Origin: a virus
Length of the DNA: 20,232 bases
Virus record (IMG/VR): IMGVR_UViG_3300044707_000442
Coordinates: 1 to 20,232 of that record
Strand: one strand, 5' to 3'
The notes under the pieces: model-generated
What the model was told of the DNA's origin: nothing
The model's input: the letters and a program-made list of their open reading frames with translations, nothing else
Databases searched by the model: none
Made by a program: the position numbers and the translations under genes
Shown: piece by piece, positions 2,309 to 20,232 of the stretch
How positions within the stretch are numbered: position 1 is the first letter of the stretch
Layout: the number at the start of each line of letters is the position of its first letter

Positions 2309-2517
2309 TAGCTGCGGGTCACTGTGGCGATCTTGGCGTCATCGCTGGACGGCGTGCCGCCAACATAGGTGAAGGTGAGCGTGGCGACAGTTTGGGCGCC
2401 TTCCTTGTAGACCACCGTTGAGAGATTGTTCGTCGTGGAGACGTAGTTCAGCTCGACGGCGTTATGCTGCGGAATGTTTAGACCGGCGATGTTTCTGACT
2501 GAGACGTTGGGGTGCAT
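2308..2517 (-). CDS. small hypothetical virion-region protein
   Basis: 69-aa protein (starts MHPNVSVRNIAGLN) placed between portal and fibre genes. Sequence is mostly beta-like, with the segment QTVATLTFTYVGGTPSSDDA near the end. That reads like a small phage beta-sandwich protein describing a polarised value and its change, often found next to fibres. No cysteines, no membrane segment. It begins 3 bases after the portal stop codon and its own stop overlaps the fibre ATG by one base, so it is in the same transcript. A minor structural or fibre-attachment role is inferred from position; the family is not recognised. Confidence 0.7.
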   Translation of the reverse strand: MHPNVSVRNIAGLNIPQHNAVELNYVSTTNNLSTVVYKEGAQTVATLTFTYVGGTPSSDDAKIATVTRS

Positions 2518-2520
2518 ACG

Positions 2521-4617
2521 TTAGGCGGCGGGCTGTGCGGGCATGCCGAGTTGCTGGTCTTGCTGCATCTTTTGCAGCGCGGGCTGGGCGCCGGTGCGGC
2601 CGATTACGGCGTTTTGCTGCTGTTGGAGCTGGAATTGGAAGGCTTGTGCTCTCGCGTCGATCATGCTTCGGAAGATTTCGTCTTGGGCGTAGCGCTGCTG
2701 GACGGCGGGATTCGACTGAATGATTTGCTGCAAGGTTTGCAGTCTTACCTGCGCGTTTTGGCCGCCTTCTTTGAGCGGGGGTTCGGTGCCTGCGGCGATT
2801 TTGGCGAAGGCGGTTTGTTCGTCCTCCTGCTCGGCGGCGGTGGCGGCGCCGATGTCTTGGACCAAGATGTCGGCGAGGTTTTGGTCGAGGGCCGCCATCA
2901 TGTAGCGGATCAAATTTGCTCGGTCCAAAACTCCGAAAGAATCCAGGGGCACTAGGGTGTTTGCAACGAACGTAAGTTTGGCCTCGAGGGCGGCTGCGTC
3001 GAGCGTGCGGGCATCGAAATCCGCTACCACGTCGAACTGTCCGCGGATGTCGGCGGCGCCTTCGGTCATGGCGACCGGGTTGCCGGTGATGCGGGCGACC
3101 TCTTCCGGCGTCATGTATTGCTGGGCGAGCTGCATGATCTGGGAGACGACCAGCTTCATGTCGAGGAGCCACGAATCGACCAGCTCCTGCATGTGGAGCA
3201 TGGAGATGTTGGGGTTGACCGTGTCGGTCATGCGGCCGAAGTAGCGGTCCACATCGGCGCGGGTCGCCATCTCGACCTCAATGCTGCCCTGACCGAATGG
3301 CGGCGGGGCCATCCAAGAGATTTCACCTGGGCGGCGCTCGGGGATCTGCACACCGGGGCCGAGGACAAGGTCAAATTTTCCGCGCGCGGCCGGGGTTTTA
3401 AGCGGAGGAATGATGCTGAGACTTGTGGCGTCAACCCGCGCATCGCGCTGGATCTTGCACTCTTCCTGCGCGGTCTGGGTGATCTCGGGGATGCCGCGCG
3501 CCTCGAGCAGCGGGCGCGTGTTGCGCTCGCGGGGCAATTCAACGAAGGGATACAAGCCATGGTCATACGGCATCAGCTCATGGATGGCCGGCTTGTCGGT
3601 GATGTTGTAGCTGAGGACGGTGCGGGTGACCTTGGTGGCGTTGGTGCGCGGGTCGTGCTCCTTTTTGTAGACGTGCCAGACTTCGATGAGGTCGCGGAGC
3701 TGCTCGAAGAGGAAGTTGTCGGAGCGGTGGATGTTGAGGTGGATGCGCTTTAGCTCGCCCTTGTGCTTCACCGCGCGCTCGACCCATTCGCTGTCCCAGC
3801 CTTCCAGCGTGGCGCGCTCGCGGAGTTCAAATTCGCTGAGGAGTTCCCGGCGGGCGACAAAGGGGGCGCGCTGGATGGAGTCCGTTTGGATCGGGAAGAT
3901 GATGTCCTCCCAAGGTTCCAAAGAACGCACGACTGGCTTGCTGCTGAAAATGTAGGGCTGCTCCCATTCGACTTCGCCTTTTTCGCGGAACTGGCGGACT
4001 TTGGCGGTGCTGCCCAGCTCGGGGATGATTTCGCCCATCAACTGCGCGGCGAGTTCTTCCTGCTCTGGGTCGAGGATGACCTCGAGGAGGGCTTGCAGGT
4101 TGGGGTCTTGGCTTTCCTGCAGCATCATCATGGCCTCTTCCATGGTGAACGTCTTGATCTCGACGCGGGTCTGCTGCTCCCAATCGACGGCCATGATGGC
4201 GAGGCCGTAGGTCTCGCGGGTCTCGGCGGCGAGGCGGACTTCGCGCCGAAGGTCATCAAGGCAATGGCCCATGAGCCACTTGAGGACGGTGTCGATGGCG
4301 TTCTTTTTGGCCACGTCCATGGACTCGACGGGCTGCGCCTGGATGCGGGCCTTGAAGAAAGCGTTGACCAAGGCGATGACACGCTCGCGGATCAGCGATT
4401 CGGAAAGAAAAACCCGGGTGTCAGCCGCATTCTCGAAGGGGAAGATTTTCTTCCCGTAGGCGCTCTGGTGCTTGCGGCCGTCGTCCGTCTGCCCGGGCCA
4501 GATGCAGTAGCGGGTGTTGAAGTTTTTGACCTTGCGCTGTTGATACTGACTGCCGTCAGCGTCGGCCTGGTCGATGTCGCCGATGATCTTGGTGAGGTCT
4601 TCTCGTTTAAGAGTCAT
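2521..4617 (-). CDS. portal protein (head-tail connector)
   Basis: 698-aa protein forming the dodecameric ring through which DNA enters and leaves the capsid. The start chosen is the ATG giving MTLKREDLTKIIGDID, because it overlaps the stop codon of the preceding gene as ATGA; a longer reading upstream would run through that gene. The N-terminal half has helical segments with charged repeats. The middle carries LYPFVELPRERNTRPLLEARG and further on GVQIPERRPGEISW, features of large podovirus-type portals. The C-terminal tail is glutamine-rich (FQFQLQQQQNAV and QKMQQDQQ), like the coiled barrel end of long portals. Length of about 700 aa fits P22-class or SU10-class portals. It lies downstream of the capsid gene, the reverse of the usual terminase-portal-capsid order. 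Confidence 0.85.
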   Translation of the reverse strand: MTLKREDLTKIIGDIDQADADGSQYQQRKVKNFNTRYCIWPGQTDDGRKHQSAYGKKIFPFENAADTRVFLSESLIRERVIALVNAFFKARIQAQPVESMDVAKKNAIDTVLKWLMGHCLDDLRREVRLAAETRETYGLAIMAVDWEQQTRVEIKTFTMEEAMMMLQESQDPNLQALLEVILDPEQEELAAQLMGEIIPELGSTAKVRQFREKGEVEWEQPYIFSSKPVVRSLEPWEDIIFPIQTDSIQRAPFVARRELLSEFELRERATLEGWDSEWVERAVKHKGELKRIHLNIHRSDNFLFEQLRDLIEVWHVYKKEHDPRTNATKVTRTVLSYNITDKPAIHELMPYDHGLYPFVELPRERNTRPLLEARGIPEITQTAQEECKIQRDARVDATSLSIIPPLKTPAARGKFDLVLGPGVQIPERRPGEISWMAPPPFGQGSIEVEMATRADVDRYFGRMTDTVNPNISMLHMQELVDSWLLDMKLVVSQIMQLAQQYMTPEEVARITGNPVAMTEGAADIRGQFDVVADFDARTLDAAALEAKLTFVANTLVPLDSFGVLDRANLIRYMMAALDQNLADILVQDIGAATAAEQEDEQTAFAKIAAGTEPPLKEGGQNAQVRLQTLQQIIQSNPAVQQRYAQDEIFRSMIDARAQAFQFQLQQQQNAVIGRTGAQPALQKMQQDQQLGMPAQPAA

Positions 4618-5485: not shown

Positions 5486-6508
5486 TTAGGCAGTCGCGTT
5501 GAACTTCGCCATGGCCTTGGGCGACATGACGGCGAGGGAGACGATGGCGTCCACCAAGCCGCGAGGTCCACCACCTTGGTCTTCCAGCTCTTGGAAGCGC
5601 GGGCGGCGTCCGTAGCGGAGCATGAGGTGGTCGGGCGACATGACGTAGCCGCGGGCGTATTTCTCAGCGTCAGTCGAAGCGTTGGCAGCCAAAAATAGGC
5701 TCGTCACGATTTCGACAGTCGAAAAATCGCCTTCGTAGAAGGAGATGTTCGACACCAGTTTGTCGGAGCCAGCGGCTTGCGCGGTCTGACGGAGGTTGAA
5801 CACGTTCGAGGTGCTGTTCACCGTGAAGCGCGTGAAGTTGGTGATGGCCTTCTTGAGACTCGGGCCAGCAACCAAGATCAGGCGATCCTGCGAACCAGTC
5901 TGCTCGTAGATCGACTGCAAGACGTTCTGCAGGTTGGTCTCGGTGAGCGAGGCGGTCGCAGTGTTGCTGAGCGACGCGGACGGCGTGGCCTGCGAGGCCG
6001 GGACGGGCAAGTCGCCTGTGCCGGTGTAGGCTGCGATCCAGGAGCCGAGGCCGCGCGTTTTATAGGCAACGGAGCCGGAGCCTTCGACGGAGTTGTTGTC
6101 GGAGCTGATGGTCGCCTCGATGTCGCGCTTCAGCTCAGTAAGAGCCTTGGCGGTCGCGCGGGCGAATTCCTTTTTGCGGCCGATCGCGGCGACATCGGCG
6201 AGGTTCGCCTGGAAGTCGCTGACGCGGACGGTGCGGCGCATCTTCTGGGCGCGGGCGCTCAAGAGGACGCGGTTGGCGGTGGCATCCGAGAACTCGGACA
6301 CGTCGGCGGAATCGACAACGCCGTCCGTGGAGGGCGAGTTGTAGGAATCGGCGAGGTAGGAGTAGACGGAGGGATTGGTGATGTCGGCGCCAGTTTTGGC
6401 GACCGAGCTGGAGATGGGGGTGTTCTTCGCATCAACAACGGTCAACACGTCGAGGAGATCCTCGCGGTTGCCAACTGCTGGGAAGAGAGTTCCTGCGGGA
6501 GCTGACAT
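5486..6508 (-). CDS. major capsid protein, DUF5309 / SU10-type
   Basis: 340-aa HK97-fold shell protein. The match to the DUF5309 (SU10 major head protein) family is shown by the N-terminal GNREDLLDVLTVVDAKNTPI, the helix AKALTELKRDIEATISSDN at about 137-155 followed by YKTRGLGSWIAAY, and the later LILVAGPSLKKAITNFTRF with the C-terminal GYVMSPDHLMLRYGRRPRFQ. Length is usual for the family. It forms the icosahedral shell together with the scaffold coded just upstream and the decoration-like protein just downstream. The leader reads AACTCTAAATATC before ATG, with no Shine-Dalgarno sequence, though this should be one of the most strongly expressed genes. A short TTAGA/TCTAA stem lies 5 bases ahead of the ATG. 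Confidence 0.92.
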   Translation of the reverse strand: MSAPAGTLFPAVGNREDLLDVLTVVDAKNTPISSSVAKTGADITNPSVYSYLADSYNSPSTDGVVDSADVSEFSDATANRVLLSARAQKMRRTVRVSDFQANLADVAAIGRKKEFARATAKALTELKRDIEATISSDNNSVEGSGSVAYKTRGLGSWIAAYTGTGDLPVPASQATPSASLSNTATASLTETNLQNVLQSIYEQTGSQDRLILVAGPSLKKAITNFTRFTVNSTSNVFNLRQTAQAAGSDKLVSNISFYEGDFSTVEIVTSLFLAANASTDAEKYARGYVMSPDHLMLRYGRRPRFQELEDQGGGPRGLVDAIVSLAVMSPKAMAKFNATA

Positions 6509-18956: not shown

Positions 18957-19108
18957 GGCCGGCGCTTCCTCCAGATCGCATTCGCCACCGCCAACATCGC
19001 AGCCGCCGGCAAACACGGCCGGTCGCCGTGATACACCTTGGCGCCGGTCTTCTCGTTGTCCCGGGCGGCCAGCCATTGGGTTACGAGGTCGATGTCGTGG
19101 GTGGTCAT
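18953..19108 (-). CDS. 51-aa hypothetical protein after methyltransferase
   Basis: 51-aa protein MTTHDIDLVTQWLAARDNEK, ending in a helix AAAMLAVANAIWRKRRP. Its start overlaps the stop of the methyltransferase gene by ATGA, with the ribosome site GGAGGAA 5 bases ahead lying within the last methyltransferase codons. Its stop overlaps the next ATG. No family recognised; a partner of the methyltransferase is only a guess. Confidence 0.65.
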   Translation of the reverse strand: MTTHDIDLVTQWLAARDNEKTGAKVYHGDRPCLPAAAMLAVANAIWRKRRP

Positions 19109-20232
19109 GGTGCTTCCTCCATCAGCTCGCCAACGAGAACTCGGAAAGCTCGCTCTGCGGTGGCAGGCACAACTCCATTGCCGAGAAGCCGGAGGGAATC
19201 TGTGCGGTTTGTGCTCGTAACCATCCACTGACGAATCTCGGCCAGTTCTTGATCACTGAGACCGGACACATTGGGTCCACCCAACCCATCGGCACTCCCA
19301 TCAAGCAGCAAACCCAATTCTGGTTTAATTTCCCCGCCTGCGTTCTCTCCACCATCGGCGTCAGCTCCTTGTATTGCCGATCCTCGTTGCCGCGGCCGGA
19401 CTTGTGGTCGCGTGCTGTTGGTGTGCCCCAGCAAGCCTGCTCGTTCAGATTCTTTACGCCATGGCCCTTGGCCCTCATCGCCGCAATCTGCTCCGGTGTC
19501 TTCGGGCCTTGGGCGTCGTGGGCTTGTGGCGTTGCCCATTGCCTCGCCGTCGCTTCCAAGGACTTTGCTGATTGGTGATTCGGATTGCTGGAGACTCCTC
19601 TGGCGCCATGCGGTCCCGTTTGCGTGTCGGGCGTCGGCCACAACCCTTGGCGGCTCCCAAGCGAACTGCTGCTCGCCGGGGCGACTTGGCCAGACTCCAT
19701 GAGGCGCGACAGCGTGACCTTGCCCTCGGCAATCCTGCGCTGCGCTGCTTCCGGCGTTGAGGCCAGATGACTGTCGCCTTGGATCGGCGTTGGCCAATTC
19801 GCCGCATCCTTCACCACCGCAGTCGTCAGCGATTCCTGCGAACCCTTCATGCCCCGCGAGCGATCTTGAAAGCCCTGACGCACTTCGCTGGCGCAGACTG
19901 TCGGCCAGTTGTGAATCTGGTTGCGCAGACGAGCTTGCGTTGTCTTGTGCTTGTCCTCGTATTCCTTCCAGCCCTCGGCTGATCCAACTCGGCATGCATC
20001 CTCCGTTGAGATCGTAAGCCAAGATGAAGATCCTTTTCCGCTGGTGCGGCGCGCCGCATTCACTCGCTGACGCCACGCACCACGTCGTTCGGTAACCCAT
20101 TCCTGCCAAGTCTTGCAGCACGTCGGGAAGCCCAAGGCTGATATGTCCCTCGACGTTTTCAGCGAAACAGACACTTGGTCGCATTGCAGCAATTCCGGCT
20201 GCGATAAATGGCCAGAGGTGTCTTGGGTCTTC
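19105..20232 (-). CDS. DNA cytosine-C5 methyltransferase, 5'-truncated by the window
   Basis: 375 residues are visible; the gene continues beyond the right edge. The visible part begins EDPRHLWPFIAAGIAAMRPS, then the ENV motif (CFAENVEGHISLG, motif VI), GAPHQRKRIFILAY (motif VIII) and, after a long variable region, RLLGNGVVPATAERAF (motif X). The methyl-binding motif I and the PC catalytic motif IV are off-window. The variable region (about residues 80-320 of the visible part) has repeated elements such as LADSLRQR, LANADPRR, VADARHAN and GHTNSTR. It probably modifies phage DNA to evade restriction. A second long frame in the same DNA has its own signature. Confidence 0.88.
   Translation of the reverse strand, partial: EDPRHLWPFIAAGIAAMRPSVCFAENVEGHISLGLPDVLQDLAGMGYRTTWCVASASECGAPHQRKRIFILAYDLNGGCMPSWISRGLEGIRGQAQDNASSSAQPDSQLADSLRQRSASGLSRSLAGHEGFAGIADDCGGEGCGELANADPRRQSSGLNAGSSAAQDCRGQGHAVAPHGVWPSRPGEQQFAWEPPRVVADARHANGTAWRQRSLQQSESPISKVLGSDGEAMGNATSPRRPRPEDTGADCGDEGQGPWRKESERAGLLGHTNSTRPQVRPRQRGSAIQGADADGGENAGGEIKPELGLLLDGSADGLGGPNVSGLSDQELAEIRQWMVTSTNRTDSLRLLGNGVVPATAERAFRVLVGELMEEAP
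19122..20192 (-). other. second open frame over the methyltransferase variable region, WPTP-repeat type
   Basis: 356 codons stay open in another register of the same strand. It contains VSVSLKTSRDISALGF, then five W-P-T-like units with W at residues 96, 133, 185, 219 and 255 (NWPTVCASE, NWPTPIQGD, LWPTPDTQT, QWATPQAHD, CWGTPTARD), and LNQNWVCCLMGVPMGW at 289-304. These are the recognisable features of phage proteins often annotated as methyltransferase-related. Its only possible start is TTG (20192). It could be an overlapping gene, a frameshift product or only the other face of a conserved DNA sequence. Confidence 0.4.

Follow-up and report, generated by a model that had tools for sequence, protein, structure and literature searches.

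Two almost fully overlapping same-strand genes that very probably form one cytosine-5 DNA methyltransferase in phages and bacteria

For the C5 methyltransferase M.EcoHK31I, Lee et al. reportedly described in 1995 that the gene of the large subunit also encodes the small one, internally and in a different reading frame; M.EaeI is another two-polypeptide C5 methyltransferase of the M.EcoHK31I type. The larger polypeptide of M.EcoHK31I carries motifs I–VIII, motif X and a predicted recognition domain and the smaller one carries motif IX; M.AquI is likewise made of two polypeptides, the small one holding both IX and X (PMC3404938). Apart from M.EcoHK31I and M.AquI as precedents, our literature search found no earlier account of dual-coded methyltransferases in phages. 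A few submitters have annotated a nested +1 CDS inside a methylase gene, namely in Escherichia phage K1G (ORF31/ORF30, Mte8-like) and Paenibacillus phage Leyra (gp61/gp62), but the overlap is left unexplained in the annotation. In Mycobacterium phage Severus (L090, NC_021307.1; genes 77/76), the alpha-type protein terminates after motif VIII; gene 76, in the +1 frame, carries the recognition part together with IX and X, a split that is M.AquI-like and not nested.

Here we describe a phage locus at which two same-strand, almost fully overlapping genes very probably make one cytosine-5 DNA methyltransferase jointly, as alpha and beta subunits. Alpha (frame A) would be the catalytic domain, providing cofactor binding, the catalytic Cys, motifs I–VIII and the C-terminal motif X. 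Beta (frame B, +1) would contribute a W-P-T-P recognition array together with motif IX, which would make up the small DNA-recognition domain absent from alpha.

Compared by described layout, the arrangement resembles M.EcoHK31I in having I–VIII and X in one subunit and IX in the other. The small subunit is seen here in an alternative overlapping frame, as is reportedly the case for M.EcoHK31I. Unlike in M.EcoHK31I, however, beta covers nearly all of the alpha gene, the two starts overlap (ATGTG), 0–6 W-x-T units are recognisable in frame B per gene, and the gene is phage-borne with no partner endonuclease seen. Furthermore, the predicted recognition domain of M.EcoHK31I belongs to the larger subunit, whereas the array here is mostly constrained in beta, with one segment (WPSRPGEQQFAWEPPRVV) constrained in alpha. 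With M.AquI the locus shares a C5 methyltransferase in two polypeptides, but M.AquI has a single split, whereas here X is back in the large subunit and the frames overlap. Judged from the sequences, the locus goes beyond known precedent in the near-total overlap from shared starts, the array constrained mainly in beta, and a very wide, largely unannotated occurrence.

The locus and its two polypeptides

The window, meaning the whole stretch of DNA analysed, comprises 20,232 bases of IMGVR_UViG_3300044707_000442, with both long ORFs at its high-coordinate end on the minus strand. Phage-type genes are among its largest, encoding an SU10-type major capsid protein (5486-6508; PF17236, 1e-40), a terminase-like large subunit and a DnaB-type helicase, and the genes near the capsid gene suggest a tailed phage. 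Frame A (20232-19105, 375 codons) reads ENVEGHISLG..LANADP..GNGVVP and frame B (20231-19122, 369 codons) reads SLKTSRD..NWPTP..LNQNWVCCLMGVPMGW. Neither contains an internal stop, as against 12 in the third frame, which bears out the first-pass annotation in its claim of two overlapping frames open for more than 1 kb. Its further claim of methyltransferase-family signatures in both frames also held, frame A matching PF00145 (8e-11) as the C-terminal part of a C5 cytosine methyltransferase and frame B matching phrog_1008. The contig ends inside both ORFs; their 5′ ends are cut and the window lacks the gene start. The features are as follows.

19105..20232, minus strand: alpha ORF (frame A), putative C5 methyltransferase catalytic subunit from the ENV (VI) region to VIII, plus X; PF00145 match
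19122..20231, minus strand: beta ORF (frame B = A+1), putative recognition array and motif IX; phrog_1008 match, 5.5e-15
20017..20055, minus strand: alpha motif VIII region GAPHQRKRIFILA; from sequence, with invariant residues among relatives
19884..19910, minus strand: beta W-P-T unit NWPTVCASE; codon-position rates
19773..19799, minus strand: beta W-P-T-P unit NWPTPIQGD; the same DNA gives LANADP in alpha (19780-19797)
19639..19695, minus strand: alpha-constrained segment VWPSRPGEQQFAWEPPRVV, within the array; A-frame p3/p1 2.2 to >100 in 39/41 loci
19617..19643, minus strand: beta W-P-T-P unit LWPTPDTQT; codon-position rates
19515..19541, minus strand: beta W-A-T-P unit QWATPQAHD; codon-position rates
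19395..19433, minus strand: beta W-G-T-P unit CWGTPTARDHKSG; codon-position rates
19269..19328, minus strand: beta motif IX LNQNWVCCLMGVPMGWVDPM; B-frame constraint (p3/p1 0.08-0.5), homologous to M.HhaI motif IX via the monomer L118
19135..19194, minus strand: alpha motif X LRLLGNGVVPATAERAFRVL; A-frame constraint (p3/p1 5.5-15.6)

The terminal 141 bases of another contig, L046, match window 20092-20232 (the first 141 of the minus strand) at 140/141 positions, and this contig carries the gene start (GGAGACAACAATGTGG). Assembly breaks seem to fall inside the methyltransferase gene, as at the L046/window end, perhaps from shared cassettes.

Motifs I, IV (PCQ), VI (ENV), VIII and X are all present in full-length alphas (L003, L096, L117), and the window alpha spans ENV (VI) to X, with the part holding I and IV beyond the contig edge. 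In the full-length proteins the PF00145 match covers the first half to two-thirds (from 2-168 to 4-226 of 324), without a recognition domain or motif IX. The alpha model folded well over the catalytic part, with a pLDDT of about 57-95 per 10-residue block, mostly >80 (residues 1-180), and with the array predicted to be disordered, and its fold matched M.HaeIII (7e-11, Foldseek). Motif IX is absent from the alpha polypeptide, and the IX block evolves by frame-B codons. L118, a relative from Rickettsiales, has the usual monomeric form (PF00145 2-322 covered) with IX and X in one frame, and its LNPDWVEWLMGYPISW..LGNSVV aligns with KLHPRECARVMGYPDSY..FGNSVV of M.HhaI (motifs IX-X), a segment that is weak by itself. 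Because this monomer aligns with IX-X of M.HhaI, LNPxWVExLMGxPxGW is taken as motif IX, located in beta; the alpha-type ending EPxVGRVAxGIPxRVDRLxxLGNAIVPQ is the same DNA as the beta LNPxWVEWLMGYPxGWTDL. The alignments thus place motif IX in beta and X in alpha, and at one locus the pair is separated.

Beta gave no match in Pfam, NCBIfam or the PDB (the last by profile search), and a plasmid search with its N-terminal part found none. Modelled alone with AlphaFold2 and 45 relatives, it reached a pLDDT of 51, too poor for reading its fold. The phrog_1008 family, named ‘DNA methyltransferase’, is matched by frame B, by the stand-alone beta of L117 and by Severus gp76, but the name is silent on its being a half-enzyme nested in another gene, and the profile partly includes motif X. 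It had been proposed that the WPTP family might be a frame-shifted face of C5 methyltransferases; this was apt in that beta appears to supply what the enzyme would otherwise lack (recognition array and IX), but beta is not an artefact of the frame.

The layout varies among relatives. In L005, L010 and L013 beta extends 157 bases beyond the alpha stop rather than finishing 17 bases short of it; the C-terminus of beta is thus variable. On Paenibacillus polymyxa plasmid pAP1 (L125, 756-2246), two frame-B motif IX blocks, LNPTWVECLMGFPLDW and LNPAWVECLMGFPLGW, stand in tandem within a single alpha gene, an arrangement that looks like a duplication of the C-terminal part. L105 (a Gammaproteobacteria MAG, 2365-3021) has a 219-codon alpha in which motif I is joined almost directly to the array, without PCQ, ENV or VIII; on its sequence this is an internal deletion preserving both frames.

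Open frames and alternating constraint

Relatives were retrieved twice, with B as query (49 loci) and with A only (34 loci). Frames A and B are open across the gene in every relative of both sets and frame C has many stops. Bias from retrieval with B is ruled out, as the loci fetched with A only are also open in B and those fetched with B only are open in A. We then compared the observed stops with prediction, shuffling the synonymous codons of A within each gene and counting stops in B and C, with the reverse shuffle of B for A. The window alone has 0 stops in B vs 3.5 expected, which is unusual but not decisive. Over 56 loci, B has 23 stops, most of them outside the B ORF proper, vs 306 expected, and control frame C has 991 vs 993, an agreement showing that the shuffle is calibrated.

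The deficit is present along the length of the gene. In the 41 full-length loci, stops in B number 0 vs 83 expected in the catalytic motifs, 0 vs 109 in the array and 1 vs 15 near motif IX, or 0 vs about 192 for catalytic region and array combined. Likewise, with B shuffled, A has no stops where 206 (catalytic), 288 (array) and 20 (motif IX) were expected, and none vs about 494 for catalytic region and array given B. The GC3 of the genes is 0.45-0.62, hence the open frame B is not due to high GC, and chance or composition as its cause is ruled out by the shuffle tests with the frame C control. Four of the 29 broad-set loci have frame-B stops upstream of motif IX; in these, beta has a later start or is damaged. 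The earlier suggestion of a true overlapping gene was therefore borne out: homologues were searched for a second frame regularly broken by stops and free of constraint, which had been named as the outcome that would speak against it, and this did not occur.

Constraint was examined in DNA-level alignments, in which no protein frame is favoured, by tallying differences at A codon positions (A1 = B3, A2 = B1, A3 = B2). In pairwise rates that are phylogenetically non-independent and that come mostly from metagenomic sequences, A3 varies fastest across motifs I–VIII; therefore frame A is constrained there. In the W-P-T-P units A3/A1 is 0.26-0.45, with the third position of B (A position 1) the most variable, and therefore frame B is constrained. 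The codon-position rates rule out a conserved DNA repeat as the target of selection, so the idea that conservation attaches to the repeated DNA unit itself was wrong in detail: what is kept in these units is the frame-B codons. The LANAD reading in alpha is mainly a by-product of the frame-B units. Its exact equivalence with W-P-T-P, as first proposed, holds for one unit (LANADP/NWPTPIQGD), but the other four correspond only approximately, reading LADS, VADA, MGNA and LGHT in frame A.

Further along, the segment WPSRPGEQQFAWEPPRVV inside the array has an A3/A1 of 2.2 to >100, with frame A constrained (39/41 loci), block LNPRWVETLMGLPIGWT has 0.08-0.5, with frame B constrained, and block LGNGVVPATAERAF has 5.5-15.6, with frame A constrained. 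The order along the gene is thus A (I–VIII), B (W-P-T-P), A (WPxRPGxxQ..WEPPRV), B (LNPxWVExLMGxPxGW) and A (motif X). The same switching was found in 98 loci outside the clade of the window, with p3/p1 of 1.44 in the N-terminal part, 0.46 in the array, 0.41 in IX and 1.95 in X. Moreover, where A is open across motif IX, the 69 distinct blocks collected from phages and bacteria have an entropy by B codon position 1/2/3 of 0.49/0.46/1.24 bits. Fourfold sites in the catalytic region show extra conservation, and because the excess over control genes is slight this result is left out of the main evidence. Over its first 150 residues, which overlap the catalytic motifs, beta shows weak added constraint relative to control genes, and full-length beta is accordingly less certain than its C-terminal half. 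By these substitution patterns selection acts on both frames, and the constraint alternates between them along the gene.

Start codons, a separated pair and rival explanations

The 49 loci with a complete 5′ end start beta with ATG in 48 cases and GTG in one, and the alpha start lies within 13 bases. An ATGTG overlap, in which the frame-A GTG follows two bases after the beta ATG, is present in 44 of the 49, with 27 different upstream 10-mers. In 19 of these 44 the GTG is the sole possible ATG/GTG/TTG start of alpha, and 37 of the 44 have a Shine-Dalgarno-like motif. The A-start offsets found (+2, -7, -4, +5, +8) are each compensated, a start being retained in both frames, and loci lacking ATGTG have other two-start arrangements (L019, AGATGACATGG; L038, ATGAAACCATGC; L075, ATGTCATG). 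Across these sequences, start codons are conserved in both frames. One mRNA with one ribosome-binding site would then yield both subunits by dual initiation, usually at ATGTG, and the alpha and beta products would assemble into one methyltransferase.

The Flavobacteriales locus L117 shows the pair separated. Its alpha (1036-1920) has I–VIII and X, the nested frame B is broken and motif IX has decayed (PNPTWPGRLLRLPKG*). A separate beta gene (1898-2692) follows immediately downstream; it has four PTP/LTP units and LNPVWVEWLMGYPANWTK, and its frame A is full of stops. As read from this locus, neither frame survives where it has ceased to be needed.

Three other explanations were weighed against the two-subunit enzyme. 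The best of them, though improbable, is that ribosomal frameshifting fuses the catalytic half in frame A to the recognition half in frame B, or switches between two recognition domains. It draws on Severus, where alpha ends after VIII and array, IX and X are all in the +1 frame; in the family of the window, however, motif X lies in frame A again, which means that two shifts would be required for a fusion, and B keeps its own 5′ start codon. Since B has its own starts and the beta of L117 is a separate gene, slippage is unnecessary, which also disfavours the earlier proposal that target specificity changes by frameshift. Less probable again is a real B protein of unrelated function, overprinted on the methyltransferase gene: the lack of Pfam, NCBIfam and PDB matches and the novel look of the N-terminal part fit this, but the best conserved block of beta is motif IX, absent from alpha and found in the same place in monomer L118. 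That B is untranslated and open through composition or a conserved DNA repeat is hardly credible, for although the stop deficit of the window by itself is only moderately unlikely, GC3 is 0.45-0.62, B is depleted >10-fold with frame C as expected, the motif IX block follows frame-B codon rules, starts are kept in both frames and beta persists as its own gene in L117.

The two-subunit methyltransferase is thus the reading we prefer. A fuller version of it we regard as evenly balanced: that one ribosome-binding site and ATGTG give two full-length proteins from the same >1 kb, and that swaps of W-P-T-P cassettes re-target the enzyme while both frames are kept open, which would make this a modular methyltransferase system, dual-coded and distributed across phages and bacteria. 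In the preferred reading, too, exchange of array cassettes would change the target sequence.

Occurrence and meaning

A bacterial genome scan with the beta fragment gave 28 loci, with alpha open in phase in nearly all; the hosts are Planctomycetes, Verrucomicrobia, Alphaproteobacteria, Bacteroidetes, Treponema, Nitrospirota, Bacillota, Acidobacteria and others. Scanning IMG/VR with the stand-alone beta gave at least 570 stretches, of which 80 were kept; motif IX was found in 75 and alpha was open across IX in 75/75. In GenBank phages, 86 records match the beta fragment. Most records annotate one frame, and in some this is beta alone (MW202476).

Strong support is rare for long overlapping genes on the same strand in phages and bacteria; here the overlap exceeds 1 kb and extends over >150 loci. 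The case combines switching of constraint between frames in one gene with a natural uncoupling event. Where an annotated stand-alone ‘DNA cytosine methyltransferase’ ends in GRVADG..LGNAVVP, the enzyme is in many cases probably incomplete, its motif IX half lying unannotated in the other frame, and many W-P-T-P ‘hypothetical proteins’ are probably that half. Neither predicting methylation activity nor cloning such enzymes would succeed unless both frames were included. Furthermore, the locus offers a tractable system for the co-evolution of two proteins on one DNA.
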